DNA of 64,000 nt from Catellatospora methionotrophica. Its GTDB lineage: Bacteria > Actinomycetota > Actinomycetes > Mycobacteriales > Micromonosporaceae. Location: assembly GCF_011297335.1 (NCBI RefSeq), contig NZ_JAAOTJ010000001.1:1-64000 (forward strand), given 5' to 3'. Position 1 is the first letter of the stretch; the number at the start of each line of letters is the position of its first letter. The position numbers and the translations under genes are program-made. The notes under the pieces are model-generated. The model saw only the letters and a program-made list of their open reading frames with translations, searched no databases and had not been told where the DNA came from. This document shows, one piece after another, positions 1 through 29,230 of the stretch.

Positions 1-237
1 GTCCAGCGCCGCCCCTCTTCGCTCCGCTCAGATTCCCGCCCTTCGGGCGGGTGGATCCCACTTCGTGGGATCTGTCTCGCGAAGCGAAGTCTGTTCAGTT
101 GCTGTGTCCCTTCGGGACCGTCCCTTCGGGACGTCAGTAGTTCATGTGGTCCACTTTACTCGCTTTCACGTCTATCCCCTGCCTTGACACCCGCTCCTTC
201 GGCTCTGTGTCCGTCCCTTCGGGCCGGACACAGAGCC
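1..237. repeat. Cluster of short hairpins with TTC(G) loops
   Basis: At least five inverted repeats with TTC or TTCG loops follow one another. The clearest are CCCGCCC-TTC-GGGCGGG at 35-51, TCCCAC-TTC-GTGGGA at 56-70, two adjacent GTCCC-TTC-GGGAC copies near 105-134, and a 13-bp stem with arms 201-213 and 225-237 around an 11-base loop. No ORF with good coding character overlaps them. Such runs can end transcription or structure an untranslated region. The function is inferred; the pairing is read directly. Confidence 0.7.
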
Positions 238-602
238 GGCTGTTGCAGCAGTTCTTTGCATAGTCTCGTCCTGACCGTGTTGCACATTATTAAATTATCG
301 GTACACATAATCAAGTAATCGATTGAGGATGGCCCCTCCCATCAGGAAGCACTTGAAACTCGGTTCATGGGTCCTCGAACAGCAACGCCTACCACAACGA
401 CGGGACACACCGTCGCAACATTACGCCCAAACACAACAACACGAACAAAACACCAACTCAAGGAACCTCAGCCCAAGCCGACAGAAACACGGTCCAGCAA
501 GCAGGCGAGCACCCACACAGGTCAGCACCACAAAACAGGCCACGACGGCAAAGTGCGTTCACGAAACTTCCCACACAGGAGAGAAGCTCAGGGCTGAGCG
601 GG
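238..602. other. Non-coding stretch with AT-rich tract
   Basis: No convincing gene. Bases 285-330 are strikingly AT-rich for this genome (ATTATTAAATTATC near 286), and 370-560 is A/C-rich, unlike normal codon use here. Several reading frames stay open but show no third-position GC bias or known motif. It may be a remnant of foreign DNA or a promoter region; I cannot tell which. Confidence 0.5.
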
Positions 603-9037: not shown

Positions 9038-9943
9038 ATGAGGCTGACCAAACGTTCTCGGCCCACCCTGCGCTTGTTATGTATGAGTCTTCCTATGCTG
9101 CTCAGGTTGACCCTGGGGTCTGCGCTCGTCGTGTTGACCATGGGTGCCACCCACTGGCAGATCGCCGTGGCCGCGGTCGCGCTGACGATGGGGCTGGTCC
9201 TGCTCGACCATTGGCATGCTCGGCACACCGCTGGACCTGAGGCCCGCGGCTCTCCAGACGGCGCTGCCGCCCCCGGCCCACCGGTCCGTCTTGCCCCGAA
9301 GGCCTCGGAGTCCGGCGGCCACCCCTGCCCACCCATTCATGACTCGACGTCGGGAGACGAGTTGGTCCAGTCGAGGCCCCGTCCGCAGAGAACCATGCAA
9401 GAACTTCAAGAGATCGAGGCTCTCATAGAGAAGGAGTACACCGACCTTTGGAGATTCGCACGGATCATCGTCGACGATCAATCGATGGCGAGTGACCTCG
9501 TTCATGTGACCTTTATAGAGGTCTACTACGCATGGGAGAGGATCAGCGGCTATCCCCCGGCAGGTCTGGGGTCCTGGCTGCGGACAGTCTTGAAGCACAA
9601 GGCCGTGGACATGTATCGCCAGCGTAAGCGGGAGGTCGTCTCCGATGAGGTCCCCACGTCGGCCAGGCCATCGGACACCGTCGAATACATCGTCGAGCTC
9701 AGGCTGGCCGTGGCTGCGTGCGAGCAGGAGATCAGCAGAATGCCGCCGGTGAGGAAGACAGTCGCCTATCTCGTTCTGCTCAAGAGGTGGACGACCGCGG
9801 CGGTGGCCGCTGAACTGGAGATCACCGAAAGCACGGTCCGCGGTCACTTGTTCCAGGCCCGAAAGCAGCTGAAAGATGCCATCGGCCCACGGCCCTGGCT
9901 CAATGACGACGACGAGGGCGAGGAAGGGAACAAATCCGCATGA
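9038..9943 (+). CDS. ECF sigma factor with N-terminal two-helix membrane domain
   Basis: A 301-residue protein. Residues 17-35 and 40-57 are two hydrophobic helices (SALVVLTMGATHW lies between them). A Pro-rich linker follows, and from residue 120 there is an ECF sigma factor: region 2 with DLWRFARIIVDDQSMASDLVHVTFIEVYYAW split across residues of 20 or fewer per helix, then region 4 with MPPVRKTVAYLVLLKRWT and AAELEITESTVRGHLF. Starts at 9026 or 8966 are possible. ATG 9395 would give a sigma-only protein. The next gene overlaps by ATGA, so both are co-translated. The membrane part would tether the sigma factor, which is unusual. Confidence 0.75.
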   Translation: MRLTKRSRPTLRLLCMSLPMLLRLTLGSALVVLTMGATHWQIAVAAVALTMGLVLLDHWHARHTAGPEARGSPDGAAAPGPPVRLAPKASESGGHPCPPIHDSTSGDELVQSRPRPQRTMQELQEIEALIEKEYTDLWRFARIIVDDQSMASDLVHVTFIEVYYAWERISGYPPAGLGSWLRTVLKHKAVDMYRQRKREVVSDEVPTSARPSDTVEYIVELRLAVAACEQEISRMPPVRKTVAYLVLLKRWTTAAVAAELEITESTVRGHLFQARKQLKDAIGPRPWLNDDDEGEEGNKSA

Positions 9944-12045
9944 ACACCGACCCGAACAAGGACCGGCTCACGCTGGCCGACGTATACCGACTCGCCGTCA
10001 CCACCGACCCGGCCGCGCCTGAAGCAGCCGACTACCAGCAGGGTCTGGCCCGCCTCAAAGCATGGGGCGAGCGGGAGGTGGACATCGTCGGCTCGCCGAC
10101 GCGACCCGCCTCGTCAGCCCGAGGACAGCGTGTCACCGTCCTTGGCCGCCGCACTCTGCTGCAGGAGTTGACCGAGCAGGCCTGCCACCCCGGAGCCGAG
10201 CCTATCGTGCTCGTCGGCCAGGGAGGGGCGGGCAAATCGACCCTCGCGGCCGCCCTGGCAGAACAGGCGCCAGGCCTGGGCCGCATGGTGTTCTGGATCT
10301 CGGCGGCCAGTGCCGGCGAATTCGCTCTGGGCATCACGGAGGTCGTCCGGAGCCTGGGCGGATCCATGGCCGAAGCGAACCTGATCACCAGCGGATCCGC
10401 AGACGCCGCAGATCTCTTCTGGAGGCGGCTTGAGGAAGCACCCCGCGAGTGGCTACTGATCCTCGACAACGCTGACGAGCCGGAACTGCTCGCGACCACG
10501 AGCGCGCCGGTCGACGCGGCGACGGATCTGCGTTGGGTGCGCCGGTCGCTTCGCGGGCAGGTCGTCGTCACCAGCAGGCAGACCGATCCGCGTGTATGGC
10601 CGGACGCGCGTGTCGTCGCGCTCGGCGGCCTGGACCTGGCCGATGCCACCCAGATGCTGAGAGATCTCGCCCCGGCCGCAGGCGCCGAGAGTGACGCACG
10701 CGCCCTGGCCGTCCGTCTCGACTGTCTGCCGCTCACGCTCCACCTCGCCGGGACATACCTGGACTCGGACGTGGCCGAGGTGCTCACGTTCGCCGACTAC
10801 GAACGGGCACTCGACAACGCGGCGGGGACGGTCATGGCCCGCGCCGGAGAGATCTCGCTGACGGGACTGGCCCGGCACGGCCTGCCCGAAGCCAGGGATC
10901 TGATGACACTGGCGAGCTGCTACGCCTCGAACTCCATTCCGGCCTCTCTGCTGGGGCCAGACCTGGACGAGGCGCTGGAAGGACTCGGCCGGGTGGGTCT
11001 GATCCGCAACGACCGGAGGGGCATCTCCCTGCACCCCCTTCTCGCCGAGATCAACCGGGCGGAGGGTGGCCAGGCCTGGCACACCGCGGCCGCGCTACTG
11101 GCGGATGCGGTGCGGGACGTGCCTTTCGACATCCCCGACCACTGGCCCCTGTACCGGCAGCTGGGTCCTCACCTGCTGGCGGTCCTCGCCGCCCGGCAGC
11201 TGAACCCGACATATCTCCATCTGCTGGCCGAGACCGCCATCCAGATCGCCCACGCCTTCGGCCGCAGCGGCGACAACGGAGCTGCCGTCGCCATCTACCA
11301 GGCCGTGATCGATCACAGCCGAGAGCTGGGAGAGAACCACCAGGCAGTGCTGCGAGCTCGGCATCTGATCGCCTGGGTGGTCGCCGACACCGGCGACATT
11401 CCCGCAGCCAAGGCCATCTACCAAGACGTCTTCGAGCGGCGGCTCGGCGAGTTCGGGCCGACCCACGACGACACCCTCGACAGCCGGCACGAGCTCGCCT
11501 GGATCGACACCTGCGACGGCAAATGGGCGAAGGCCGAGCGCGACTACCGGGACCTTCTCCACGACAGCCTGATCCACCGCGGATCCGATGCCGCCGGCAC
11601 GTTGACAACCCGCCACGAGCTCGCGTTCGCCATCGCGGCGCAGGGGCGCCTCGACGAGGCGCTCTCCGACTTCGAGCAGATCTTGGACGATCGGCGACGG
11701 GTCCTGGGCGTACAACACCCGCAGACCCTGCAGACGCAGCACGAGATCGTTTGGATCACAGCCCGGCGCGGCCATTACGCGCAGGCAGAGGTGCTCTTCC
11801 GGGAACTGCTCGAACTGCGCCGGGAAATGGAGGACGACCACCCGCATGTCCTGCTCAACCGGCACGAACTCGCCTGGGTGATCGCACGACAGGGCCGGTT
11901 CGCCGAAGCCGAGACCATCTACGCCCGCGTCCTGGAACGACGCGACCGCACCCTGGGTAGCAACCATCCGGACACTGGCAAAACCCGGTTCGCCTTGGAC
12001 GAACTGCGCCAGGGCCGCATCGTCGACGCCGTCCACCTCGCCTGA
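9940..12045 (+). CDS. NB-ARC/TPR STAND ATPase
   Basis: A 701-residue signal-transduction ATPase. Residues 60-330 are an NB-ARC module: P-loop GQGGAGKST (93-101), Walker B LLILDNADE, sensor GQVVVTSRQTDPRVW and a GLPL-like LDCLPLTLHLAG. From about 440 to the end there are five or six kinesin-light-chain-type TPRs of about 42 residues, each with a TRHELAW or SRHELAW core. Such proteins oligomerise on ligand sensing. A GAGGAAGGGAA ribosome-binding site lies in the end of the sigma gene. It resembles the TPR ATPase of FxSxx-COOH peptide systems, but no FxSxx peptide or radical SAM partner is present. Confidence 0.88.
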   Translation: MNTDPNKDRLTLADVYRLAVTTDPAAPEAADYQQGLARLKAWGEREVDIVGSPTRPASSARGQRVTVLGRRTLLQELTEQACHPGAEPIVLVGQGGAGKSTLAAALAEQAPGLGRMVFWISAASAGEFALGITEVVRSLGGSMAEANLITSGSADAADLFWRRLEEAPREWLLILDNADEPELLATTSAPVDAATDLRWVRRSLRGQVVVTSRQTDPRVWPDARVVALGGLDLADATQMLRDLAPAAGAESDARALAVRLDCLPLTLHLAGTYLDSDVAEVLTFADYERALDNAAGTVMARAGEISLTGLARHGLPEARDLMTLASCYASNSIPASLLGPDLDEALEGLGRVGLIRNDRRGISLHPLLAEINRAEGGQAWHTAAALLADAVRDVPFDIPDHWPLYRQLGPHLLAVLAARQLNPTYLHLLAETAIQIAHAFGRSGDNGAAVAIYQAVIDHSRELGENHQAVLRARHLIAWVVADTGDIPAAKAIYQDVFERRLGEFGPTHDDTLDSRHELAWIDTCDGKWAKAERDYRDLLHDSLIHRGSDAAGTLTTRHELAFAIAAQGRLDEALSDFEQILDDRRRVLGVQHPQTLQTQHEIVWITARRGHYAQAEVLFRELLELRREMEDDHPHVLLNRHELAWVIARQGRFAEAETIYARVLERRDRTLGSNHPDTGKTRFALDELRQGRIVDAVHLA

Positions 12046-12062: not shown

Positions 12063-12881
12063 ATGATCCACTCGACACGACTCGCCGCCGCCATCGACGA
12101 ACTGGACCTGGCCGGGCGGGCACTCATCGTCCACGCGTCCCTGCGTTCGCTGAAGACGCCGATCGACGGCGGGGCCGACACCCTCCTGGACACGCTGCTG
12201 CGCCAGAACTGCACCGTCATGGTCCCGGCCTTCACCGAACCCCAGTTCCGGGTGCCGGCCCCCACCGACATGCGCCCAGCCCGCAACGGTCTGGACTACG
12301 CGACCGAAGCCCTCGCGCCAGAATCCGGCCCGGTCTTCGACGTCGGCTGCGGGCTGATCAACTCGGGGCTCGGAACCCTGCCCGCCACACTCGTCAAGCG
12401 GGCCGACGCCATCCGCGGCGATCACCCCTTGAACTCCTTCGCCGCCATCGGACCCCGAGCCGCCCACCTCATCCGACCCCAGACACCCGACGACGTGTAC
12501 GCGCCACTGCGCAGACTCGCCGAACTCGACGGCGCCGTACTGCTCGCCGGCGTCGGCCTCAACCGGATGACCGCTCTCCACCTGGCTGAGCAGCGATCGG
12601 GTCGAGCCGCCTTCCGTCGCTGGGCACGTGACACAGCCGGCGACATCCGGATGGTGGAAGTCGGATCATGCTCTGAGGGATTCCCTCGGCTAGAGCCGGC
12701 GATCGCCCCTCTCGCCCACGTCGCCACCGTCGCGGCTGCGCGATGGCGCAGTTTTCCACTGCGGCCGACCCTGGCCGTCGCGACAGCAGCCATCGTCGAG
12801 CGCCCGGACATCACTCACTGCCCGGACGGTGCCTGCCTGCTCTGCCGGGACTCCATAGCGGGCGGCCCACTACCGCTCTGA
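12063..12881 (+). CDS. AAC(3)-family-like N-acetyltransferase
   Basis: A 272-residue member of the Antibiotic_NAT (aminoglycoside 3-N-acetyltransferase) fold. The N-terminus ALIVHASLRSLKTPIDGG matches the family's VHSSLxxxGxxxGG, and HPLNSFAAIGPRA matches the HPxxSFAAxGxxA block; LLAGVGLNRMTALHLAEQR holds the core histidine region. It ends with an extra cysteine cluster (HCPDGACLLC), as in AAC(3)-like proteins that sit in actinobacterial FxSxx-type loci (recollection). It lies 17 bp after the NB-ARC gene in the same operon. Real aminoglycoside resistance is doubtful; a peptide or small-molecule substrate is as likely. Confidence 0.8.
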   Translation: MIHSTRLAAAIDELDLAGRALIVHASLRSLKTPIDGGADTLLDTLLRQNCTVMVPAFTEPQFRVPAPTDMRPARNGLDYATEALAPESGPVFDVGCGLINSGLGTLPATLVKRADAIRGDHPLNSFAAIGPRAAHLIRPQTPDDVYAPLRRLAELDGAVLLAGVGLNRMTALHLAEQRSGRAAFRRWARDTAGDIRMVEVGSCSEGFPRLEPAIAPLAHVATVAAARWRSFPLRPTLAVATAAIVERPDITHCPDGACLLCRDSIAGGPLPL

Positions 12882-16141: not shown

Positions 16142-17455
16142 ATGGGAGCCGCCTACAAAGCTGTCCAACTCGGGGCAGACATGCTCATGACGGACGGTGA
16201 GGTCATTCATCCGGTGCCGGAGGGTGTCTACGAGCCGGGCCTCGGGTCGGTGGCGACCCGGCTGGCCGGCCGGTTCGGTGACGAGGGTGTCGTCATGGTG
16301 GACGCGGACGCCGCCCGTGCGATGCGCCTGCCCACGACCCGCGACGAACTGACCGCCGTCGAGGGTGACCACGTCCTGTTGCGCGAGATCCGGGCGGAGG
16401 GCTGGGAGGTCAGGAAGCTGGCGGACTGGACGACGCTGCGGCGCGAAGGGGTCATGCTGCGGGTCGGCGTGCTGCCCGCGATCGAACCGGCGACCTTCCC
16501 GCTGCTGGACCCCGACCCCGCCGACGGTATGGGCACTCTGACGTCCCTGGCACTGTGGCACCGGGTCACGGGCAGCGCGTATCACGGCACCAGCGGTGTC
16601 GCCGGCACGGCCGTTCTGAGCCGGGTCACGACGGTGGGCGTGAAGAAGCTTCAGCCGACGTGGAAGCCCAAAATCGAACTGGTGCCCGGGTTCGAGGACG
16701 ATTTTCACGCGGACCACTTTCGGGCGCCCGCTTCCGGGATGAGGTTCGCGCATGCGTACGACGCGAATCGTGCTTATATCGCGGCGGCGGCGAATGCGAT
16801 TCTGGCCCCGTGGCAGCTGAAGCAGGGCGGCGTGAAGTTCGACCCGAAGATGGGCGGCTGGTGGTTGTGTGAATTGTCGCCGTGGAACGACAAGCGGATG
16901 CCCGACCCGGCCGGCTATGCAGCGGAGAAGGGACCGCGCTGGATCTCCACCGCGACGGTGGCGCTGCTGCAGCAGTTGACGGAAGAAGGCGTTTACGGCG
17001 GTGTGCGGATCAAGGACAGCCGGGTGTCGGCCGGGTCTGAGCTGCTGCGGCCGTGGGCGTGGAAGATGCGGGACGCCTACGCGGCGGCGGCCGGGGCGAC
17101 CGACGACCCGCGCGACGCTGACCGGGTATTGAAGGCGCTCAAGGAGTCCGGGCGTAAGACGCTCGGGATGCTCGCCAGCGAGACGAACTGGATCTACCGG
17201 CCGGACTGGTGGTATTCCATCATCGCGACGGACCGCGCGAATCGCTGGCGCAAGATGTGGAAGACGGGGCGGGAGCAGAACCGCTGGCCGCTGTGGATCG
17301 ACGTGGACAATGTGTGGTACGCCTCGGACGTCGAGGACGGCGTCGCCGCGATTCCGGCCGGCTGGAATCTCGACGCCACCGGGATGAAGCTCGGGGCGTA
17401 CAAGCACAAGGCGACCCGTAGAAGCCGGGTCGCGGCGAATGGGGATGGGAAATGA
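16142..17455 (+). CDS. Putative divergent family-B-type DNA polymerase
   Basis: A 437-residue protein not annotated by any family I can name with certainty. Three motifs occur in the order and spacing of family-B polymerases of the protein-primed/plasmid kind: motif A-like AYDANRAY (D207), motif B-like KALKESGRKTLGML (331-344) and motif C-like WIDVDNVWY, whose DVD (387-389) stands for DTD. A tG.pY.gT-like segment HRVTGSAYHGTSG precedes motif A. The upstream 3'-5' exonuclease motifs are not clear. Start 16142 is chosen because sequence before it is low-complexity; no good ribosome-binding site is seen. The stop overlaps the next gene by ATGA. Polymerase identity is inference from pattern only. 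Confidence 0.5.
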   Translation: MGAAYKAVQLGADMLMTDGEVIHPVPEGVYEPGLGSVATRLAGRFGDEGVVMVDADAARAMRLPTTRDELTAVEGDHVLLREIRAEGWEVRKLADWTTLRREGVMLRVGVLPAIEPATFPLLDPDPADGMGTLTSLALWHRVTGSAYHGTSGVAGTAVLSRVTTVGVKKLQPTWKPKIELVPGFEDDFHADHFRAPASGMRFAHAYDANRAYIAAAANAILAPWQLKQGGVKFDPKMGGWWLCELSPWNDKRMPDPAGYAAEKGPRWISTATVALLQQLTEEGVYGGVRIKDSRVSAGSELLRPWAWKMRDAYAAAAGATDDPRDADRVLKALKESGRKTLGMLASETNWIYRPDWWYSIIATDRANRWRKMWKTGREQNRWPLWIDVDNVWYASDVEDGVAAIPAGWNLDATGMKLGAYKHKATRRSRVAANGDGK

Positions 17456-18174
17456 GCGGGTTGGGTGACCGCCTGGTCAACATGATGCGCGGCCGCGAAG
17501 TCCAGCAGTCCCCGATGACCTTCCGGGAGAAGGCGGAGGAGTTGCGGCGTATCGCCGGTGTCACGAAAGGCGCCAAGATCGCGGGCGTGGACCGGCGTAC
17601 GTTCCAGCGGTGGTTTGAGAAGTGGAACGCCGGAATGAATCCGAAGCCGCGTAAGGACACGCTGGACAAGCTGGATTTCGGCGTACGCCGGGCGTGGGTC
17701 GCGACCCCGCTGCCGGACGGGGCCGTGGTACTCAACGTGAAGGACCGCAACGATACGGCGCGCGCGGTCCGCACGATCACCGCGAAGCAGCTCAGGCTCT
17801 CCCCCGGCACGATGAACCGGGTCGCGGACGTCTACGTGGCCACCGGCGACGCCGAGGCCGCGGCGGCGGCGTTCCTGGCGGGCGTGCAGGACCGCTTCTA
17901 CCGCCGGTGGCTCACGCCGCCGCGCGGCGACCGGGACGCGGCGGCGTGGGACCGTTCGGGGGGCACCGGTGCGGTGTCGGCCGGGGCCGCTGCGGTGGTC
18001 GTCCCCGGACCGCGGACCGCGGCGGCTGAGGAGGAGTTCGCGGAGGAGGACCTGGACCAGCTCGCCGGGCCGGAGGTGCCGGAGACGGCCTTCGACGAGT
18101 TCATGGACGCGATCTACGACGAGGGCGTGGGCGAGGTCCCCGACGAGGACGTGTACGGCGGCGACGTCCAGTGA
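17452..18174 (+). CDS. Tpg-like HTH protein (possible terminal protein)
   Basis: A 240-residue protein. Residues 24-60 form a helix-turn-helix (GAKIAGVDRRTFQRWFEKW). Residues 76-85 (FGVRRAWVAT) and 103-153 (TARAVRTITAKQLRLSPG, then VYVATGDAEAAAAAFLAG, then DRFYRRW) follow the order of blocks in Streptomyces telomere terminal protein Tpg: HTH, ExRRxW, RRxTxxLPPxY, AxxAGAxExxLRxIxAEGLQExYF. The tail (200-240) is strongly acidic, as in Tpg. Its ATG overlaps the polymerase-like gene's stop, so both are made together. A plain phage-type regulator is the alternative. Confidence 0.5.
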   Translation: MSGLGDRLVNMMRGREVQQSPMTFREKAEELRRIAGVTKGAKIAGVDRRTFQRWFEKWNAGMNPKPRKDTLDKLDFGVRRAWVATPLPDGAVVLNVKDRNDTARAVRTITAKQLRLSPGTMNRVADVYVATGDAEAAAAAFLAGVQDRFYRRWLTPPRGDRDAAAWDRSGGTGAVSAGAAAVVVPGPRTAAAEEEFAEEDLDQLAGPEVPETAFDEFMDAIYDEGVGEVPDEDVYGGDVQ

Positions 18175-18212
18175 CTGCGCCCGGCGAGCAGGCCTGACGG
18201 GGATGTGCAGCG

Positions 18213-19259
18213 TCAGGCGGCGGCGCGGGCGGATGGTGGGCGGCGGCGCAGGGTGCTGTCGGTCAGGGACGGTGCGCGCCAGGCGCCGTCGGGGCGGTAC
18301 AGGTTGACGCCGGGCGGGACGATCTCGTCGATGCGGTCGAGGGTCGCGTCGTCGAGCGCCAGGGCGGCTCCCTTCAGGGCGGTGTCGAGGTGGGCCAGGG
18401 TGCGTGGGCCGATGATGGTCGACGTGACAGCCGGGTGTGCCTGGGTGAACGCGACGGCGAGTTCGGGCAGGGTGCAGCCGAGCTCGTCGGCGAGGGCGGT
18501 GAGCTGTTCGAGGGCGTCGTACTTGGCGGCGTTGGCGGGGATGGCGGGGTCGAAGCGGTGCGGCGTGAGGGCGGCGCGGCCGGTGGTGAGGTCGACGGTG
18601 TCGCGGTGGATGCGGCCGGACAGGAAGCCGGAGGCCAGCGGGCTCCAGACGAGCACGCCCATGCCGTAGCGCTGGGCGACGGGCAGGATGTCGGCTTCGA
18701 TGCCGCGGGCGAGCAGGGAGTACGGGGGCTGCTCGGTGCGGAAGCGGCTGACGGCGCGGCGCTGGGCGGCGTGGTGGGCTTCGACTAGTTCCTCGGCGGG
18801 GAAGGTGGAGCAGCCGTACGCGCGGATCTTTCCGGCGCGGACGAGGTCGCCGAGGGTGGCGAGGGTCTCCTCGATGTCGGTGGTGTGGTCGGGGCGGTGG
18901 ATCTGGTAGAGGTCGATCCAGTCGGTGTTCAGGCGGCGCAGGCTGTCGTCGACGGCGGTGAGGATCCAGCGTCGGCTGTTGCCGCCGCGGTTGCGGCCCT
19001 CGCCCATCGGGAAGTGCACCTTGGTGGCGAGGATGACGTCGTCACGGCGGCCGTGCAGGGCCTTGCCGACGATGGTCTCGGATTCGCCGGCGGAGTACAT
19101 GTCGGCGGTGTCGATGAAGTTGACGCCGTGGTCGAGGGCGTGGCCGATGATGCGGGCGCAGTCGTCGTGGTCGGGGTTGCCGACGCTGCCGAGCATCATG
19201 GTGCCCAGGCAGTAGGCGCTGACTTCGATGCCGGTGCGGCCTAGGGCGCGGTAGCGCAT
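18213..19259 (-). CDS. Aldo/keto reductase
   Basis: A 348-residue NADPH-dependent oxidoreductase of the AKR superfamily. The catalytic tetrad is complete: D50, Y55 (FIDTADMYSAGESE), K80 (ILATKVHF) and H121 (YQIHRPD). The C-terminal cofactor site STIIGPRTLAHLDTAL is present. It is close to the YajO/PdxI-like or general-stress AKR groups with (beta/alpha)8 barrel. It is transcribed alone, with the plus-strand Tpg-like gene ending 38 bp away. The ATG at 19259 lacks a strong ribosome-binding site. The substrate is unknown. Confidence 0.92.
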   Translation of the reverse strand: MRYRALGRTGIEVSAYCLGTMMLGSVGNPDHDDCARIIGHALDHGVNFIDTADMYSAGESETIVGKALHGRRDDVILATKVHFPMGEGRNRGGNSRRWILTAVDDSLRRLNTDWIDLYQIHRPDHTTDIEETLATLGDLVRAGKIRAYGCSTFPAEELVEAHHAAQRRAVSRFRTEQPPYSLLARGIEADILPVAQRYGMGVLVWSPLASGFLSGRIHRDTVDLTTGRAALTPHRFDPAIPANAAKYDALEQLTALADELGCTLPELAVAFTQAHPAVTSTIIGPRTLAHLDTALKGAALALDDATLDRIDEIVPPGVNLYRPDGAWRAPSLTDSTLRRRPPSARAAA

Positions 19260-19391
19260 GGTGCTTCTCCCCTGGTCGGCACTCCTGCGCCGGTGCGACA
19301 GGAGTCGATCATGGAAGTGAGCGTAGAGGCTGGAGTGCGCTCCAGGTCAAGTCGGCGCGGCCCGGTGTGCTTCACCGGGCCGCGCCGCTGT

Positions 19392-19994
19392 TCAGGTCCG
19401 GGCGTTGGCGGCCTGTTCGGTACGGGTGCGCAGGTCGTCGAGGTCGATGCCCGCCTCGGTGAGGATGAGCGCGGCGAGGCCTTTGCCTTCGCGGATCAGG
19501 CCGAGCAGGACGTGTTCGGTGCCGATGTGCTTGTGCTTGAGGCGCAGGGCTTCGCGCAGGGACAGTTCGAGCACGACCTTGCTGCGGGGGGTGAAGGGGA
19601 TGTGGCGGCCCTCGCTGACGGCGACGCGGGGGCGGCGGCGGAACAGGCCTCGCTTGGGAGGCTGGGTGACCTGGTTGAGGGCGCCGGGGCCGAAGGTCTC
19701 CTCGAGTTTGGCGCGTACGGCGTCGAGGTCGATGCCGATGGCCTGGAGGGCCTCGGCGTCGGCGGCGCCCAGCGGCTCGCTGGTGCCGACGTGGCGGTTG
19801 ATGGCGGCGGTGACCTGGTCGTGGTCGAGCCCGGCGGCGGTGAGCAGGTCGTGCGGGATGCCGCTGGTCGGCCGGAGCAGGCCGAGCAGAAGGTGTTCGG
19901 TGCCGATGTAGTGCTGCTGGCCGCAGTGGCGGGCCTCGTCCTGGGCACCTCGGACGACGTCGCGTGCGGCGGCGGTGAATCGTTCGAACATCAT
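19392..19994 (-). CDS. Double Clp-N domain protein
   Basis: A 200-residue protein made of two Clp amino-terminal repeats without any AAA+ ATPase domain. The first (residues 2-80) contains FTAAARDVVRGAQDEAR and IGTEHLLLGLLR; the second (135-190) contains FTPRSKVVLELSLREALR and IGTEHVLLGLIREGKGLAA. Clp-N domains bind substrates or adaptors of ClpC/ClpB, so it may be an adaptor or decoy. Its first ATG overlaps the stop of the HTH gene upstream (ATGA), marking a two-gene operon. Confidence 0.88.
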   Translation of the reverse strand: MMFERFTAAARDVVRGAQDEARHCGQQHYIGTEHLLLGLLRPTSGIPHDLLTAAGLDHDQVTAAINRHVGTSEPLGAADAEALQAIGIDLDAVRAKLEETFGPGALNQVTQPPKRGLFRRRPRVAVSEGRHIPFTPRSKVVLELSLREALRLKHKHIGTEHVLLGLIREGKGLAALILTEAGIDLDDLRTRTEQAANART

Positions 19995-20227
19995 TTCTCC
20001 CGTCGGTCCGGTCCGGGCCAGCGGCCGGCGTGCTTCTTGTGTACGGCCTGGCGGCTCACCTCCAGGGCGTCGGCGATCTCCTGCCAGGACCAGCCGGCCC
20101 GGCGGGCGTTGCCGACCTGCAGCGTCTCCAGGGTTTCGAGCAGTCGGCGCAGGGCGAGCACCGCTCGGAGGCCGACGCCGGGGTCGGCGCTGCCGGCCGC
20201 GGCGGCGAGTTTGGTCGCGTCGCTCAT
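19991..20227 (-). CDS. Small helix-turn-helix regulator
   Basis: A 78-residue protein beginning MSDATKLAAAAG and containing one HTH (GWSWQEIADALEVSRQAVHKK) near the end. The start at 20227 is chosen over ATG 20248 because a consensus-like promoter puts transcription initiation at or next to this ATG (see next entry). It is translationally coupled to the Clp-N gene. It probably represses its own operon through the palindrome overlapping the promoter. Members of this pair are common in actinomycetes, but the signal is unknown to me. Confidence 0.82.
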   Translation of the reverse strand: MSDATKLAAAAGSADPGVGLRAVLALRRLLETLETLQVGNARRAGWSWQEIADALEVSRQAVHKKHAGRWPGPDRREK

Positions 20228-20274
20228 GCTGTCAATGTAGGTTGACATAGGTCGGGATGTCAACTCAGGTTGAC
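20227..20274 (-). promoter_or_regulatory. Leaderless-type promoter with overlapping palindromic operator
   Basis: On the minus strand TTGACA (20263-20258) and TACATT (20239-20234) are 18 bp apart, and ATG 20227 lies six bases past the -10, so the mRNA would begin at the start codon. GTTGACAT (20241-20248) and ATGTCAAC (20257-20264) form a perfect palindrome inside the promoter, with a third GTTGAC at 20269-20274. Autoregulation by the HTH protein is inferred. Confidence 0.72.
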
Positions 20275-20444
20275 GCACTATGTGCGCGCTGGCTCGTGAC
20301 CTGTGGTTATGCGATCTGCGGCGTAATGGTCGCGGGTGGCTTTTGAATGATCTGCGTGACACATGTCGTTCACGAGGTTTAGGACGGTTTCGCGGTGTTA
20401 GCTTCTGCGGGCCCCGCATACCCGCTGACATGGATGGAACGACG

Positions 20445-21986
20445 ATGACAGCTGCCGCCGTCACCTCACGCACCGCACTGATACGCGACGCGCTGCTGTG
20501 GGCCGCGGTCGCCGCGAGCCTGGCGTGGACATTCGCCTACCGGTCCACCACCAACCGCGTACAGGTGCTGGACTACGACGACGGGGTGTACTGGCAGACC
20601 GCGCTGGCCATCGCCGACGGCGCGAAGCCGTACACGGAGGTGTTCCACGCTCAGCCACCGCTGTTCCCGTGGCTGGTCGCACAGCCGTTCGCGCTGCTCG
20701 GCGCGGTCGGTGGGGAGATGACCGCCCGGCTGCTGATGACGGGGTTCACGATGCTGCTGGCGGGCAGCGCGGCCGGGATGGCGGCGTTGCTGCGCGGGCC
20801 CCGGGCGGGCATGCTCGCCGCACTGGCCGTGGCCGCGTTCCCGCTGGTACAGCGGTACAGCTTCCAGTTCGGCGCGGATCTGCCCGCCGCGGCACTGGGC
20901 GGGGTCGCGCTGTGCCTGGCGCTGCGCGCCCGCACCGCGGGCCGGTCGGCACGGTGGTGGTGGGCCGGGGCGGGGGCGGCGTTGTGCCTGGCCGCGCTGG
21001 TGAAACTGATCGCCGTGGTGGTCGTGCCGTCGCTGGCGCTGGCCTTGCTTGCCACTGCCGGGCCGGGGGGCTGGGCATGGCTGCGCCGCACCGCAGCGGC
21101 GATCGGCTGCTTCGCGGCCGGGTTCGCCGTGGCGGGGGCCGCCGCGCTGGTGGCGATCCGGCCGGGGCGGGCGGCCTGGGACCAGGTGTTCTCGTTCCAC
21201 CTGCGGGCGGCCGCGTCCGCCGACGTGCCCGACGTCATCGGGATGATCCGCAACACCGGGGACTGGGGGCTGCCGTACTTCATCGCCGCAGGGGTCGGGG
21301 CGGTGCTGGCACTGTGCCTGCCGGGCCGGGCCGGAGGGCGCGCGGACGTCGCCGCGATCACGGTGTGGGCGGCGGCGATCGTGCCGTACGGGTATCTGCA
21401 CCATCCGGTGTTCAAGCACCACGTGCTGTTGTTCATCGCACCCGCCGGGGCGTTGATCGTGCTGGGGGTGGCGGCGCTGTGGGCGCTGGCGCGCCGGGTC
21501 GTGCGGCGGCTCACCGGGCCACGGCGGCGCTGGGCAGGAGCTGTCGCCGTGGTGGCGGCCGTGCTGGCCGGGGCGTGGCAGACCACGCACACCAGCGTCG
21601 CGCCGGTGCTCGCCGACACCGCGGTCGAGGCGTGCCTGCGGGCTCTGCCCCGTGATGTGACGCTGGTCAGCGACGACCAGGCGATGCTGGCGCGCGCGGG
21701 GCTGCGTACGCCGCCGTGGCTGGTGGACACGTCGCACGTGCGCATCGACTCCGGGTGGCTCACCGACGCCGAGATCACCACTGCGGCGTCCGCCGCCGAC
21801 GGGGTGCTGTTCGCCCGGCCACGGCGTATCGGCAAGCACCCGGAGGTCAGGGCGTGGGCCAAGGAGCATTTCCCGGTGCGGTACACGGCTGATCGGTATG
21901 AGCTCTACCTGCGTGCGGCGACGCTGGTCACCGGATGCGCCGGGACGCTCCAGGTCGACGGCAAGACAGTGACGCCCACCCCGTGA
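20445..21986 (+). CDS. GT-C-fold membrane glycosyltransferase (ArnT/PMT-like)
   Basis: A 513-residue integral membrane protein with 10-12 predicted helices. After the first helix (residues 15-33) comes VLDYDDGVYW (D43, D45, D46), the acidic loop that in ArnT, PMT and mannosyltransferases binds the lipid-linked sugar and metal, then FHAQPPLFPWL. A soluble C-terminal domain of about 120 residues (ACLRALPRDVTLVSDDQ onward) faces outside. The start could also be ATG 20430. It likely moves a sugar from polyprenyl phosphate to a wall glycan or protein; donor and acceptor are unknown. A terminator hairpin follows at once. Confidence 0.85.
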   Translation: MTAAAVTSRTALIRDALLWAAVAASLAWTFAYRSTTNRVQVLDYDDGVYWQTALAIADGAKPYTEVFHAQPPLFPWLVAQPFALLGAVGGEMTARLLMTGFTMLLAGSAAGMAALLRGPRAGMLAALAVAAFPLVQRYSFQFGADLPAAALGGVALCLALRARTAGRSARWWWAGAGAALCLAALVKLIAVVVVPSLALALLATAGPGGWAWLRRTAAAIGCFAAGFAVAGAAALVAIRPGRAAWDQVFSFHLRAAASADVPDVIGMIRNTGDWGLPYFIAAGVGAVLALCLPGRAGGRADVAAITVWAAAIVPYGYLHHPVFKHHVLLFIAPAGALIVLGVAALWALARRVVRRLTGPRRRWAGAVAVVAAVLAGAWQTTHTSVAPVLADTAVEACLRALPRDVTLVSDDQAMLARAGLRTPPWLVDTSHVRIDSGWLTDAEITTAASAADGVLFARPRRIGKHPEVRAWAKEHFPVRYTADRYELYLRAATLVTGCAGTLQVDGKTVTPTP

Positions 21987-21993
21987 CATACGG

Positions 21994-22030
21994 ACTGCGG
22001 GACGTCCCCCGAGGTGGGACGTCCCGCAGT
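21994..22030. terminator. Terminator hairpin
   Basis: Perfect 15-bp inverted repeat, arms 21994-22008 and 22016-22030, directly after the glycosyltransferase stop and before the end of the convergent gene at 22085. Confidence 0.82.
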
Positions 22031-22084
22031 TCGAGCCCGGCGGCTGCCGATGCATGGCAGAAGAATGGCAGCCGCCGGGAGCTC

Positions 22085-23194
22085 CTAGCGTTCCAGCAAC
22101 TCCTGGTGGAAGTCGCGGTAGCGCTGCACGGCCAGGCGCAGCCCCTCGGTGTCCGTGCCCGCCTCACCGAACGCCGCGTCCAGCTCGCGCTGCCGGTCGG
22201 CCAGCGACTCCTGCAGCGTGCGCACCGCCTCGCCGACCAGGTCACGCAGCTCAGCGGCGACCGCCGGCGGGTCGTCGACGAACCGCAGCTGCGCTGCCTG
22301 CCAGCGGTTGCGCAGGTTCTCGGCGGCCGCGGCGGGCCACAGGGGCGCCAGCGCGGCGGCCTCGGTCGGCTCGGCGGCCGGCGGGTCGACCGCATCGGGT
22401 CCGCCCACGACCTGCGCCTGGTCAGCGGGCAGATCCGCGTCGTAGGAGGTCACGTCAACGGGGGTGACATCCGCGGCCTCATGCCTCGTCGGCTCGTCCG
22501 CACCGTCGGCGGCCACCGGCTCGTTCACCGCGGCGAGATCCGCGGCGTCCGCTCCGTCGGGCTCGCCGTCCAGCACCTCGGCCGAATGCGGCGACGGGGT
22601 GCCCGGTGTGGTCAGGTCCTCGACCGCGAGGTCGGCTGCGGTCGGCTCGGCGGCGGGGGTGCCGTCGGGGGCGAGTTCGTCGTCGGCGTCCGACCGGTCG
22701 GCGGCGGGGACGTCGACGTCGGCGAGGTCGTCGAGCGTACGGGTCTCGGCGTCGACCGGCTCACCGTCGGCGTCGACGGCCTGCGCGATCGTCTCGTCCT
22801 GCACCTCGTCGGCGGGCACGACCGGGTCTTCCCGGTCGGCCGGGTCCTCGCCGATGTGCGCCTCGGGGTGGGCCGGGTCGTCGGTGGCGGAGGGCTCGTC
22901 GTCGGCGACGTCGTCCAGCGGCGGGGTCTGGTCGTCGGGCGTGGCCACGGTGTGCCCGCCCTCGGTGGTGCCGCTGAAGCCGTCGAGGTCCACCGGCTCG
23001 ACGGGCTCGCCGTCGCGTACGGCGTCCGGGCCGTCGGCGTGCACGACGCCGTCCTGGTCGTGGCGGTGCGCCGGGTCGACGAGTTCGCCGTCGACGACGT
23101 CATCGGTGCGGTCCTGGTGCGGCACGGTGTCGCGCCGCTCGTCGTCGGCGTCGAGGGCGCCGTGGCTGAAGTGGGCTCGGGTGTCGTAGGTCAT
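22085..23194 (-). CDS. Highly acidic hypothetical protein with C-terminal helical domain
   Basis: A 369-residue soluble protein. Residues 1-280 are low-complexity and very rich in Asp, Glu, Ala and Pro (for example DVADDEPSATDDPAHPEAHI), probably disordered. The last 85 residues form a helical domain (NRWQAAQLRFVDDPPAVAAEL, then LADRQRELDAAF, then GLRLAVQRYRDFHQELLER) that is also present in the gene upstream. The start overlaps the upstream stop by ATGA. Function is unknown; shared domain and coupling suggest the two proteins act together. Confidence 0.75.
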   Translation of the reverse strand: MTYDTRAHFSHGALDADDERRDTVPHQDRTDDVVDGELVDPAHRHDQDGVVHADGPDAVRDGEPVEPVDLDGFSGTTEGGHTVATPDDQTPPLDDVADDEPSATDDPAHPEAHIGEDPADREDPVVPADEVQDETIAQAVDADGEPVDAETRTLDDLADVDVPAADRSDADDELAPDGTPAAEPTAADLAVEDLTTPGTPSPHSAEVLDGEPDGADAADLAAVNEPVAADGADEPTRHEAADVTPVDVTSYDADLPADQAQVVGGPDAVDPPAAEPTEAAALAPLWPAAAAENLRNRWQAAQLRFVDDPPAVAAELRDLVGEAVRTLQESLADRQRELDAAFGEAGTDTEGLRLAVQRYRDFHQELLER

Positions 23195-23805
23195 GCGTGG
23201 ACCTCCTCGTCACGGCGGGGGGTGGGGTTAGCGGCCGCGGCTGCGGCCGCCGGGGTGGTGGGCTCGGTGGGGACCGGGTCCTCGCCGAGCAGCTGGGCGA
23301 CCAGCTCGCGGTAGCGGACCACCGCGATACGCAGGTCCTCGGTGGCGGCTTCGCCGCGGCTGTTGCGCTCGGCGATGTCCCTGGCCTCGCGGTACGAGGC
23401 AAGCGTGGCGGCGTGGTCGACGGACAGCTGGGCCAGCTGCTCGGCGTCGTCGTCGCCGGGGTAGCCGCGTGCCGTGATCAGGTCACGGACCAGTTCGTCG
23501 GCCTCCCCCACCGCGTCGGCCGGGGCGTCGATGAAGTGCGACTGCAGGGCGTGCCAGCGGACCACGAACTGCGCGTGGTCCTCGGGGGTCAGTTCCCGCA
23601 GTTCCAGCTCGGCGTGGCGGCGCTCACGGTCGCGCAGCTCCCGCTCGGCTTCGGTCCTGTTGTCGTGCTCGGCGACGGCGCGGTCGTACTCGGGGCCGAA
23701 ACGGCGGCGCAGCGACTGGCGGCGCATGGCCGTCCAGGCGACGAACGCACCAGCCGCGAGCACGGCGAGCACGACCAGCAAGATGATGATCTGTCCGGTG
23801 TCCAT
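23191..23805 (-). CDS. Membrane-anchored protein with helical domain shared with neighbour
   Basis: A 204-residue protein. An N-terminal transmembrane helix (residues 6-27, IIILLVVLAVLAAGAFVAW) leads into a charged coiled-coil-like segment (35-75). The helical domain of residues 80-175 (FVVRWHALQSHFIDAPADAV, LSVDHAATLASYREARD, LRIAVVRYRELVAQLLGE) is paralogous to the C-terminus of the downstream acidic protein. AAGGAGG lies nine bases before ATG 23805. Just upstream is a tRNA gene on the same strand. No family name is known to me. Confidence 0.82.
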   Translation of the reverse strand: MDTGQIIILLVVLAVLAAGAFVAWTAMRRQSLRRRFGPEYDRAVAEHDNRTEAERELRDRERRHAELELRELTPEDHAQFVVRWHALQSHFIDAPADAVGEADELVRDLITARGYPGDDDAEQLAQLSVDHAATLASYREARDIAERNSRGEAATEDLRIAVVRYRELVAQLLGEDPVPTEPTTPAAAAAAANPTPRRDEEVHA

Positions 23806-23862
23806 CGAGGTACCTCCTTCGACGAGGAGATACCCCTTTTCACGGCGCTAAACCGTGAGATG

Positions 23863-23935
23863 CGCCGGTGACGGGATTCGAACCCGCGACCCCCCGCTCG
23901 ACAGGCGGGTGCTCTCACCACTGAGCCACACCGGC
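23863..23935 (-). tRNA. tRNA-Asp (anticodon GTC)
   Basis: A 73-base cloverleaf read on the minus strand: acceptor GCCGGTG/CACCGGC, D-stem GCTC/GAGC, anticodon loop CTGTCGA giving GTC, T-stem GCGGG/CCCGT with TTCGAAT, discriminator G73 as expected for Asp. CCA is not encoded. Confidence 0.95.
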
Positions 23936-23954
23936 AGCGTATGAAGTTGTGTCG

Positions 23955-24027
23955 CACGGGCGGCAGGATTCGAACCCGCAACCTTCGGATTTGGAGGCCG
24001 GTGCTCTGACCGTTGAGCTACACCCGC
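23955..24027 (-). tRNA. tRNA-like gene with CCA anticodon (Trp-type, possibly decayed)
   Basis: A 73-base element on the minus strand with D-stem GCTC/GAGC, anticodon loop CTCCAAA (anticodon CCA, Trp), T-arm GCGGG-TTCGAAT-CCTGC and acceptor GCGGGTG/CGCCCGT including a G1-U72 wobble. The anticodon stem CCGGC/TCCGA has mismatches at both ends, leaving three pairs. The loop and other arms are intact. It may be an auxiliary tRNA-Trp that has begun to decay. Confidence 0.6.
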
Positions 24028-24045
24028 GTGCGTGGAAATGACGAA

Positions 24046-24078
24046 CCGCCCGTCCCCGGCGTACCGGGGAGCGGGCGG
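24046..24078. terminator. Strong hairpin beside tRNA genes
   Basis: Near-perfect stem with arms 24046-24059 and 24064-24078, one bulged base and a four-base loop (CGTA). It lies upstream of the two minus-strand tRNA genes and immediately past the stop of the small ORF 24100-24204, for which it is a fitting terminator. Confidence 0.75.
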
Positions 24079-24099
24079 CGTCGGCCGTTCGCGTGGCGC

Positions 24100-24204
24100 T
24101 CAGCGGCGCCGGTCACCCGGATCGTCGGTGTCGTCCGTGGACCATGAACGGGTCACGGGACGCGGGGAGGCCGACCATCGCTGATCGCTGGTGTGCTGGC
24201 GCAT
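24100..24204 (-). CDS. Small ORF with strong ribosome-binding site
   Basis: A 34-residue peptide, MRQHTSDQRWSASPRP followed by VTRSWSTDDTDDPGDRRR. An AGGAGG lies six to seven bases before the ATG and a terminator hairpin follows the stop, so it looks like a complete small transcription unit. It is hydrophilic with two Trp, Ser/Asp-rich, with no signal peptide. No family is known. Confidence 0.5.
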   Translation of the reverse strand: MRQHTSDQRWSASPRPVTRSWSTDDTDDPGDRRR

Positions 24205-24278
24205 CGCCGTCCTCCTGTCCGGTCGGGGTGGTGTGCCTACCGTAGGCGGCGGGGCTCGGGCCGGGCAAAGGGTTTACG

Positions 24279-25064
24279 TCAGAGTTCGGTGACGATGACG
24301 TCGAGCTGCCAGGGTCGGCCGGGGCGGGCGGGTGGCTGCTGCTCGACGGTGTGTTTGAGGTCGCGCAGGGCGGTGGCGAGTTCGGCCGGGTCGCGCGGGT
24401 TGCCGCCGTCGGTGAGCAGGTCGCGTACGAGGCGGCCCTTGGTGGCTTTGTTGAAGTGGCTGACCACGGTCCGGGCGCCGTTGCGTTCGTGCAGGACCCG
24501 GACGGTGGCGGTGCGGGCGGCGACGTCGCCACGGGGCGTCCAGGCCGGGGTGTAGAGCGACGAGCGCAGGTCCAGGACGAGGCCGGTGCCGGCGGCTTCG
24601 GCCAGGGGCTGGGCCATGGTGTCACGCCACAGGGTGCTGAGCAGGCCGACGCCGGGTAGGCGTACGCCCATGGAGCAGCGGTAGGGCGGGACGCGGTCGT
24701 CGACGCGCAGCGCACCCCACAGGCCGGAGAAGATCAGCAGGGTCCGGCGGGCGCGGGTCTTCGCGGGGGCGGGCAGGTCGGCCAGGCCGAGGTTGTCGTA
24801 GAGCACGCCGGTGTAGAGGCTGCCCGCGGGCAGTGCCTTCGCGGTGCGCAGCAGGGTGTTGCGGGTGATCTCGCCGCGCAGGCCGGGGCTGAGGCCGAGG
24901 GTTTCGGCGGCGATGTCCTGATCGCCGCCGCACAGGGTGATCAGCGCGTCGAGGGCGCGTTCGCGGGCCGCGTGCAGGGCGGGCAGGGACAGCCGTGCCG
25001 GGTCGAGCGGTTTGCCGGAGCCGGTGTCGGCCTTGCCCTCCGAGGGCGGCAGCAGGATCAGCAC
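24279..25064 (-). CDS. yaaA: Peroxide stress protein YaaA
   Basis: A 261-residue member of the YaaA/UPF0246 (DUF328) family, which lowers oxidative DNA damage by limiting free iron in E. coli and binds DNA. Typical features are the start MLILLPPSEGKA, then LYTGVLYDNLG, the central IFSGLWGALR with YRCSMGVRLPG, and the C-terminal HFNKATKGRLVRDLL. Length matches the family. It begins 40 bp upstream of the end of the DUF1801 gene on the same strand, so the two may share a transcript. No regulator site was identified. Confidence 0.92.
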   Translation of the reverse strand: MLILLPPSEGKADTGSGKPLDPARLSLPALHAARERALDALITLCGGDQDIAAETLGLSPGLRGEITRNTLLRTAKALPAGSLYTGVLYDNLGLADLPAPAKTRARRTLLIFSGLWGALRVDDRVPPYRCSMGVRLPGVGLLSTLWRDTMAQPLAEAAGTGLVLDLRSSLYTPAWTPRGDVAARTATVRVLHERNGARTVVSHFNKATKGRLVRDLLTDGGNPRDPAELATALRDLKHTVEQQPPARPGRPWQLDVIVTEL

Positions 25065-25114
25065 CGGCTCACTCTAGGTGACCTGCCGGGTGGGGCGGGC
25101 GTCGGCACGGCTGG

Positions 25115-25537
25115 TCAGCTGGTGATCGTCTTGCCGTGGACCTGGGTGAAGGCGGTGGCGACGAGTTCGCGCAGGGCGGCGGTGTCGACGTCGGCGAGCT
25201 TCTTGACGTAGACGCAGGCCTTGCTGACGGTGACGGGGCCGATGCGGGCGAGCAGGTCGCCGTGCACGTCGAAGCCTTCGGCGACGTAGAGGACGAGGGC
25301 CTGCTTGCGCGGGGAGAAGCCGACGGCAGGCCAGTCGCCCTGCTTGCCGGAGGCGTAGACGTAGCGGTACTGCCCGAAGCCGACGATGGCGCTGCCCCAC
25401 ATGACCGGCGGCTGGCCGGTGACGTCCTCCATCAGCTCGCAGACGGCCTGGGCGTCGGTGCGGCGGCGGGCGTCGGCGACCCCGGCGAGGAACTCCTCGA
25501 CGCTGGCGGCGCTCCTGGTCGTCTTCGGTTCGGCCAT
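25115..25537 (-). CDS. DUF1801 domain protein
   Basis: A 140-residue YdhG-like protein. Family signs are the N-terminal VEEFLAGVADARRRTDA, the central PPVMWGSAIVGFGQYRYVY, GDWPAVGFSPRKQALVLYV and the C-terminal VSKACVYVKKLADVD. DUF1801 proteins resemble the frataxin-like Fra/YdhG fold and are thought to bind iron or other ligands, without proven activity here. Start ATG 25537 is set by the conserved beginning MAEPKTTRSAASVEEFL. It is divergent from the Nudix-like gene with about 80 bp between them. Confidence 0.85.
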   Translation of the reverse strand: MAEPKTTRSAASVEEFLAGVADARRRTDAQAVCELMEDVTGQPPVMWGSAIVGFGQYRYVYASGKQGDWPAVGFSPRKQALVLYVAEGFDVHGDLLARIGPVTVSKACVYVKKLADVDTAALRELVATAFTQVHGKTITS

Positions 25538-25616
25538 ACGGCCAGGGTATGCCCGGGGTCCGACAGCGGCCGCCACGGGACGGCACGGGGGTGTCCGCGC
25601 GCAGTAGGCTTCGCCC

Positions 25617-26060
25617 ATGACCACCCGTCTCGTGCTGACGGCCCTGGTGGGCCGGACCGGCGCTGTGCTGCTGCGGATGCGTGACGAGCAGTCGGCGGTG
25701 CGAGCCAACCGGTGGAGCCTGCCGGGTGGCCCGATCCGGGCCGGGGAGAGCCCGGTCGGTGCCGCCAAGCGGCATATCGCCGAGCAGGCGCGGCTGGCGG
25801 TCGACGGTGAGCCGGCGCTGTTCTGGCAGGGGTTCCTGCCGGGCACCCGGACCGACGTGTACTTCTTCGCCGTGGGCACCCCGGCGTGGAACCAGGACAT
25901 CGTGGCGGAGGCCGGGGTGGTCGCGGAGTTCGTGGCGGGCGAGGACGTGCTCAGCGGGCGGGCGTTCACGGCCGCGTCGGGGTTCGTGCTGGGCCGGTTC
26001 CTCGACTCCACCGAGTATCTGACGCTGGCGGGCCGGTTCTTTCCCGCCGATCCGGTCTGA
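25617..26060 (+). CDS. Nudix-like protein with degenerate Nudix box
   Basis: A 147-residue protein with a Nudix fold pattern: VLTALVGRTGAVLLRMRDE, then NRWSLPGGPIRAGES. The Nudix box reads GGPIRAGESPVGAAKRHIAE: the first E is present, but the catalytic REUXEE has become RHIAEQ, so two metal-binding glutamates are missing or shifted. It may therefore bind nucleotides without hydrolysing them. Its stop TGA shares one base with the ATG of the next gene (TGATG), so they form an operon. Confidence 0.75.
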   Translation: MTTRLVLTALVGRTGAVLLRMRDEQSAVRANRWSLPGGPIRAGESPVGAAKRHIAEQARLAVDGEPALFWQGFLPGTRTDVYFFAVGTPAWNQDIVAEAGVVAEFVAGEDVLSGRAFTAASGFVLGRFLDSTEYLTLAGRFFPADPV

Positions 26061-27016: not shown

Positions 27017-27095
27017 CGCGGTCGTCCGTAACGGCGTGTGCGAAGTGGATGAATGAGGTATCGCCTGGAGTCGATCGGACGGTTAGGTTCTTTGC

Positions 27096-27350
27096 ATGTC
27101 CGGGGACGCGCTGATGATCGGCATTATCGGAGTGATGCTGGGGATCCTGGTCGGCCGCCGCTGGCTGAAGATGCAGCAGGCCAACTCCGGGTACAGGTCC
27201 GCGGTCGCGGGGGTGCCCAAGGCCAAGGCCGCGGTGAAGTCGGCCCGTACGGCGTGGATGCTCGCGATGCGTGGCACGCTGCTCGCCGCGGTGCTGCTGT
27301 TCGTTTACTTCCTGGCCACGACGACGGCGGTGTTCCAGTCCGCGAAGTGA
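27096..27350 (+). CDS. Small two-helix membrane protein
   Basis: An 84-residue protein with two hydrophobic helices (residues 5-20, LMIGIIGVMLGILVG, and 57-77, GTLLAAVLLFVYFLAT) joined by a basic loop (KAKAAVKSARTAW). By the positive-inside rule both ends lie outside and the loop in the cytosol. No family recognised. It is a single gene between the DUF1152 and hydrolase genes. Confidence 0.7.
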   Translation: MSGDALMIGIIGVMLGILVGRRWLKMQQANSGYRSAVAGVPKAKAAVKSARTAWMLAMRGTLLAAVLLFVYFLATTTAVFQSAK

Positions 27351-27414
27351 GCGGGCTCACCGGGGCGCGAAAATCGGCGGCGGCGTCCGGTCGTGATCAC
27401 TAGGGTGGCGCGCG

Positions 27415-28179: not shown

Positions 28180-28184
28180 GCGGC

Positions 28185-29226: not shown

Positions 29227-29230
29227 GCGG

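Follow-up and report, generated by a model that had tools for sequence, protein, structure and literature searches.

Two overlapping genes near the start of a Catellatospora methionotrophica contig very probably form a minimal tap-tpg operon, the products of which serve the ends of a linear Catellatospora chromosome. We analyzed a stretch of 64,000 nucleotides (the window), which opens contig C1 (1,641,278 bases) of an assembly of 8.39 Mb and 56 contigs. A preliminary description had reported two reading frames overlapping by ATGA and knew of no named family with such a pair. The overlap is present (Table 1), and the pair does have a named counterpart: because ORF 1 reads as a short Tap member and ORF 2 as a divergent Tpg-like protein, the two genes are of the already known tap-tpg kind, in stripped-down form.

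Table 1 Features of the window.
Feature	Position	Strand	Details
Telomere-like terminal region	9..238	.	outer stem ~17-27 with 79-89; hairpins 35-51, 54-72, 106-118, 119-133; long palindrome 200-238
ORF 1, tap-like gene	16142..17455	+	437 aa; compact Tap limited to the C-terminal polymerase-like module
Motif A, AYDANRAY (residues 205-212)	16754..16777	+	D207; D in 40/40 rows covering it
Motif B, KALKESGRKTLGML (residues 331-344)	17132..17173	+	K334 and G342 (K-x7-G); K in 40/41 rows, G in 41/41
Motif C, WIDVDNVWY (residues 385-393)	17294..17320	+	D389 invariant (41/41 rows), D387 variable (7/41)
ATGA stop/start overlap, ORF 1/ORF 2	17452..17455	+	
ORF 2, tpg-like gene	17452..18174	+	240 aa; HTH ~37-60, conserved block ~107-155, acidic tail

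The pair is present in six of 11 Catellatospora genomes, its own (G000) included. In all six, the tap-like gene lies directly upstream of the terminal-protein gene with a four-base overlap (ATGA in five, GTGA in one), which bears out the conservation that the preliminary description had proposed to look for. The ORF 1 proteins of the other five genomes are 79-95% identical to that of the window. In comparisons of the window with these five congeners, most differences in both genes fall at third codon positions; against G002, we counted 21, 12, and 111 differences at the three codon positions of gene 1 and 11, 15, and 65 in gene 2. Given this third-position excess and the overlap kept in six of six genomes, both genes look to be under selection.

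ORF 1 appears to be a compact member of the Tap family that matches only the C-terminal part of longer Tap proteins. It matches the NCBIfam model telomere_Tap (NF047542) with an E-value of 1.2e-13 at profile positions 408-545 and 593-649, and its 50.7 bits fall below the curated cut-off of 600, a value that suits near full-length Tap. Matches below the cut-off also occur in eight of 14 control genomes; in Catellatospora genomes, those outside the pair fall on N-terminal profile positions (12-145 only), and none reaches the Tap catalytic positions. The N-terminal DNA-binding (HTH) part of Tap is missing from ORF 1, which aligned to the C-terminal part only, and open frames in three congeners allow at most 448-450 codons for this gene. 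Searches with ORF 1 found no Pfam match at all and nothing in PHROGs or phage records, and its family profile found nothing among PDB sequences. A pattern search for Tap-like proteins in viral contigs picked out 24 stretches, none of which was confirmed.

A tblastn search of plasmids with ORF 1 returned 17 records, 10 of them from Rhodococcus; Streptomyces pRL2 is among the others. Eleven of the 17 are annotated as telomere-binding or telomere-associated, including Arthrobacter pAL1. Fifteen matches span residues ~225-425, and one covers at least 80% of the query. We took eight of the 17 relatives together with their neighbors (six linear records and two labeled circular), and found that ORF 1 residues 46-433 align to the C-terminal ~400 residues of the eight plasmid Tap-like proteins (996-1573 aa as retrieved, five of the eight truncated by the locus boundary). 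In all eight loci, the Tap-like gene is followed by one of 156-216 aa. Plasmids from Xylanimonas and Cellulosimicrobium (L069, L070) that carry Tap-like/terminal-protein-like pairs are labeled circular; the labels may be wrong, or such pairs may persist on circular replicons.

We built a profile (A7) from ORF 1, its counterparts in three congeners, and the eight plasmid proteins. With the best four candidates per genome scored, it matches 45 genomes (the source genome included) among 394 of the class, in nine of 138 genera; a single genus, which we infer to be Streptomyces, holds 36 of the 45 matching genomes. In 23 Streptomyces-type loci, the open frame is 640-834 aa, some frames being cut by the locus edge. 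A downstream gene of 184-186 aa with an RxVER-type HTH was taken in 17 of these loci, and a simple pattern finds a GSTDQD-like motif in 12 of the 17.

The preliminary description had read ORF 1 as a divergent family-B polymerase, with A-, B-, and C-like motifs in order and three catalytic aspartates. The motifs are found in ORF 1 in that order. To follow the residues across the family, we used a 41-row Tap alignment consisting of ORF 1, 29 loci from the class-wide A7 search, and 11 other A7 rows. D207 and D389 are family-wide in this alignment, but D387 is not, and its variability eliminates it as an essential or family-wide catalytic residue. A Tyr or Phe stands five residues after D207 in 37 of 40 rows, Y393 is Tyr in 39 of 41, and the C-terminal region with conserved D, K-x7-G, and D that marks a Tap was found in ORF 1 across the 41 rows. 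Family-B polymerases carry the strings DxxSLYP (motif A), Kx3NSxYG (motif B), and YxDTDS (motif C), and in the RB69 and phi29 enzymes the metal is bound by the Asp of motif A and the second Asp of motif C. The spacings D-x4-Y, K-x7-G, and D-x-h-h in the ORF 1 family equal those of the family-B motifs.

When we compared the 41-row Tap profile with nine phi29-type polymerases using hhalign, the two aligned over 274 columns (score 41.2, E = 2.6e-4). Although it had no motif input, the alignment placed motifs A, B, and C in register, along with a KLG-x2-KH block that aligns with phi29 KLGYWAHES. Among the controls, twelve column shuffles and a reversed profile did not exceed a score of 17.1 (E = 0.36 or worse), and four comparisons that involved unrelated families had E-values of 0.13-0.69 with scores up to 20.2. 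The match depends on the rows used: the 20 non-Streptomyces-type rows give E = 7.5e-6, the 21 Streptomyces-type rows E = 0.5, and the Catellatospora rows alone E = 0.075. When a single one of three PolB rows is omitted, E rises to 0.012-0.02, and PRD1 and GC1 alone give E = 0.027. The profile-profile check suggested beforehand therefore succeeded in bringing the three motifs into register, but it weakened when single PolB rows were left out and lost the match for the Streptomyces-type rows alone. We consider that the likeness of Tap to phi29-type polymerases points, with moderate support, to real but distant homology. An AlphaFold model of ORF 1 (four input sequences) had a mean pLDDT of 30.6.

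The motifs in order and the aligned KLG-x2-KH block would also be expected if ORF 1 were an independent phi29-like family-B polymerase and not a Tap. We regard that reading as very improbable: besides the lack of any Pfam match for ORF 1, the Pfam family DNA_pol_B_2 reaches at best E = 0.24, in two of 12 family rows, and membership in the Tap family is clear. We also found no exonuclease domain in ORF 1, in the Pfam search or in the alignment, which starts at phi29 residue 167. This residue lies past most of the phi29 exonuclease domain. Kolkenbrock et al. in 2010 reportedly found PolB motifs partly conserved in the C-terminal segment of pAL1.101, and a 2017 paper is said, by its title, to describe Tap as a primase; because of these two reports, we do not claim the PolB link as wholly new. 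An earlier study assigns Tap to a DNA polymerase class of its own, lacking any polymerase motif and, as of 2015, database homologues (PMC4513846).

ORF 2, judged by its sequence, is best described as a divergent Tpg-like terminal protein. It carries the HTH (Pfam HTH matches fall below their cut-offs) and the acidic tail that the preliminary description had noted. A profile of the six ORF 2 proteins matches the eight plasmid partners of Tap-like genes over 155 columns (hhalign E = 2.9e-10), and residues 76-170, which exclude the HTH, match them alone with E = 2.3e-5 (20 column shuffles, E = 0.062 or worse). The plasmid partners in turn match 17 Tpg-like proteins over 150 columns (E = 1.6e-14). 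A direct comparison of ORF 2 with the 17 Tpg-like proteins gave E = 2.9e-5 (eight shuffles, E = 0.033 or worse) over residues 1-84 only. In direct comparison, the expected likeness to Tpg thus holds for these residues but not for the region around T114, which PMC3572947 gives as the nucleotidylated residue of Tpg. We found no counterpart of T114, which is followed by Asp in Tpg, in ORF 2, where the alignment with Tpg does not extend. The invariant Ser and Thr residues of the ORF 2 family, T108, S117, T120, T131, and T155, are candidate primer residues. Searching plasmid records with ORF 2 found nothing, and PHROGs gave a weak likeness to phage-type regulators (E = 0.034). We rejected a plain phage repressor as the identity of ORF 2, since its non-HTH part also matches terminal proteins. 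An AlphaFold model of ORF 2 (four input sequences) had a pLDDT of 45.0. The pairing of a PolB-like module with a Tpg-like terminal protein, as originally suggested, is upheld by the NF047542 match of ORF 1, by the match of the Tap profile to phi29-type enzymes at motifs A, B, and C, and by the match of ORF 2 to terminal-protein profiles.

The preliminary description had also proposed looking for telomere-like palindromes near the pair, and we found such palindromes at two contig ends of its own genome. When window positions 1-260 were folded as DNA, z-scores were -6.9 and -7.9, and none of 200 shuffles was as stable on either strand. The loops of the short hairpins within positions 9-238 read GAA on the minus (3'-ending) strand, the would-be 3' overhang; GAA is one common loop type at Streptomyces ends, according to PMC8743542. 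We searched bases 9-160 against the 11 Catellatospora genomes and obtained four matches in three genomes, all at a contig end or at most 56 bases from one. Two are in the source genome (start of C1, end of C6), and the others stand at the start of G003:C13 and of G005:C139, contigs whose first bases fall at window positions 9 and 10, one base apart. Among the four homologous ends, five of 44 predicted base pairs are compensated and three are broken, each in one sequence. The copies in the source genome lie at C1:1-460 and C6:209337-209553 (C6 = 209609), and its terminal repeats are short, consisting of a 217-base telomere match at 80% and scattered patches. At the C6 end, 56 bases lie past the match (L027 1718-1773) that are not found at the G003:C13 and G005:C139 starts, and may be an assembly artefact or a longer end. 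An intact telomere copy is missing in three of the six pair-bearing assemblies (11 genomes searched, matches in three); the end of G006:C2 resembles the inner part of the telomere. In G003, the pair begins 697 bases from a telomeric contig start. Window positions 1-460 found no match in 72,556 plasmid records with the low-complexity filter on. Between the telomere and the pair lies a gene of the aminoglycoside 3-N-acetyltransferase family (window 12063-12881; PF02522, E = 1.3e-34), and the subtelomeric region also encodes a 701-aa NACHT ATPase with TPR repeats (window 9940-12045).

We located the two arms of the source chromosome in G007, a single contig of 8,595,826 bases with neither the pair nor a telomere match. 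Window positions 18212-37341 map in pieces to G007 5788709-5770426, and C6 bases 118489 to 67 map in pieces, mostly collinear, to G007 5800023-5907385. The arms therefore sit 11 kb apart in G007 (11-13 kb across the pair-less genomes G007 and G010), and window positions 1248-6165 map between them. In G010 the junction is likewise contiguous and collinear with that of G007; these two are the pair-less genomes, of five, in which we looked at the junction. In G007, dnaA lies 4.36 Mb from the junction, or 50.7% of the genome. The G008 assembly consists of two contigs: C2 begins with the left arm, which bears the pair, and C1 begins with right-arm sequence. If the contigs join at their other ends, dnaA would lie at 50.1% between the arm ends. 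This layout, together with the position of dnaA, fits a linear chromosome with a central origin that was opened near its terminus. The contiguity of G007 and G010 alone does not prove that their chromosomes are circular. Because the arms are syntenic with an 8.6-Mb single contig, we rejected a linear plasmid as the carrier of the pair. The preliminary suggestion of an integrated or formerly linear element gives way here, as the pair lies 16 kb from an apparent present chromosome end.

The last ~120 bases of G003:C25 (L025) hold a broken ORF 1 piece (residues 39-77, 56% identical to that of the window), which ends a right-arm contig beside a homologue of window positions 1248-6167 and is possibly a relic of an inverted terminal repeat. 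In pair-less G004, contigs C34 and C43 carry the subterminal region twice at equal identity, which may be a long terminal duplication tied to another kind of end system. G006 has right-arm sequence between the pair and the contig end (L019 7973-14844, matching G000:C6 40106-46991); arm sequence may thus have been transferred from one end to the other.

Assemblies often break at hairpin-rich DNA, and palindromic contig ends could in principle be such breaks in a circular chromosome, with the pair doing other work, for example in repair or regulation; the weak phage-type regulator likeness of ORF 2 would suit such a role. We judge this quite improbable. None of the four telomere matches is more than 56 bases from a contig end, two independent contigs start within 1 nt of each other, the hairpins are compensated, and the pair belongs to a terminal-protein family. 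In addition, the two arms end nearby in G000, G003, and G008, while they are contiguous in G007 and G010.

Across 250 Micromonosporaceae genomes of 44 genera, an A7 profile search with seven candidates per genome scored matched only the six Catellatospora genomes. In an rpoB tree, pair-bearing genomes fall into two clades, one with pair-less G010, which is nested inside it, and the other with pair-less G004 and G009. The gene tree of the pair conflicts with rpoB, since the pair of the distant G008 is nearer to that of G000 than are the pairs of the more closely related G003 and G006. The pair may have been gained, lost, and exchanged between species. The conflict of the trees would also be expected if the pair had arrived with a linear plasmid that recombined with the chromosome end in the past and now persisted as a relic or cargo, with another system serving the telomeres. 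The broken second ORF 1 piece at the end of G003:C25 and the plasmid location of the distant relatives (in a search that covered plasmids only) can be read the same way. We nevertheless consider a relic unlikely: both genes have a third-position excess with the overlap conserved in six of six genomes, no other match to the Tap catalytic positions occurs in the genus, and the G003 pair lies only 697 bases from a telomeric contig start. Within the family, PMC11537254 states that Micromonospora chromosomes were once thought linear and are now taken as circular from sequencing, and the abstract of PMC12844328 calls the Micromonospora rosaria FoRo54 chromosome linear; because of the latter, we claim no first for the family. 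In the literature collection that we searched, no paper matched Catellatospora together with telomere, and Micromonosporaceae together with linear chromosome and telomere matched only a paper on rubber degradation.

If the pair is a tap-tpg operon, replication from an internal origin would leave 3' overhangs, and the telomere overhang (window 9-238) would fold into GAA-loop hairpins. ORF 1, a Tap cut down to a PolB-like module, would bind ORF 2 and link it to the first deoxynucleotide (probably dCMP, placed opposite the terminal G), with D207 and D389 as putative metal ligands. ORF 1 would then extend a short primer, cellular polymerases would complete the strand, and ORF 2 would be left covalently on each 5' end. 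According to PMC4513846, Tap and Tpg by themselves suffice for the protein-primed synthesis of 13 nt. By homology, we would expect polymerase and priming activity, nucleotidylation, and covalent attachment from ORF 1 and ORF 2; the chromosome would presumably be linear in the cell, and the short Tap sufficient. We also suggest, more tentatively, a scenario that may or may not hold, in which an exchangeable, self-contained cassette (a minimal PolB-like Tap, a terminal protein, and matching telomeres) linearized circular Catellatospora chromosomes at the replication terminus, perhaps on more than one occasion. Linear chromosomes whose telomeres and telomere genes are both visible in sequence would then exist in Micromonosporaceae, and a polymerase module of ~440 aa would be all that a Tap needs.

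The Catellatospora pair shares with Streptomyces Tap-Tpg its operon order, a downstream HTH terminal protein, the D, K/G, and D motifs, palindromic telomeres with 3-nt GNA-type loops, and a near-end location. It differs in the length of ORF 1 (437 aa without the N-terminal Tap part, against frames of 640-834 aa in 23 loci), in the length of ORF 2 (240 aa against ~185) and its lack of a recognizable T114 motif, and in its host family, Micromonosporaceae. The Arthrobacter pAL1 pair (pAL1.101, pAL1.102) and the Rhodococcus linear plasmid pairs have a homologous C-terminal ~400 aa, a downstream terminal-protein-like gene, and linear replicons; unlike the Catellatospora pair, they are plasmid-borne and encode proteins of ~1700-1800 aa with extra N-terminal parts. 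In phi29-type systems, motifs A, B, and C, the KLG..H block, and the adjacency of polymerase and terminal protein genes are alike, but ORF 1 lacks the exonuclease domain and the similarity is seen by profile only. Replication there proceeds from the ends, whereas here we expect replication from an internal origin with end patching. Tac-Tpc of plasmid SCP1, which we liken to the pair by description, follows the same logic of a polymerase-like partner and a terminal protein, and has no Tac/Tap homology according to PMC4513846.

If our reading is true, the pair would let its own chromosome be linear, not circular. The short Catellatospora Tap exposes the catalytic core of the family and, with moderate support, links the family to the protein-primed polymerases of family B; the active site thus becomes testable in a small protein. 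Linear-looking and contiguous chromosomes occur side by side in this genus, and their arms meet near the point opposite the origin in the pair-less species measured. The origin and cost of bacterial chromosome linearity therefore become testable among close relatives.
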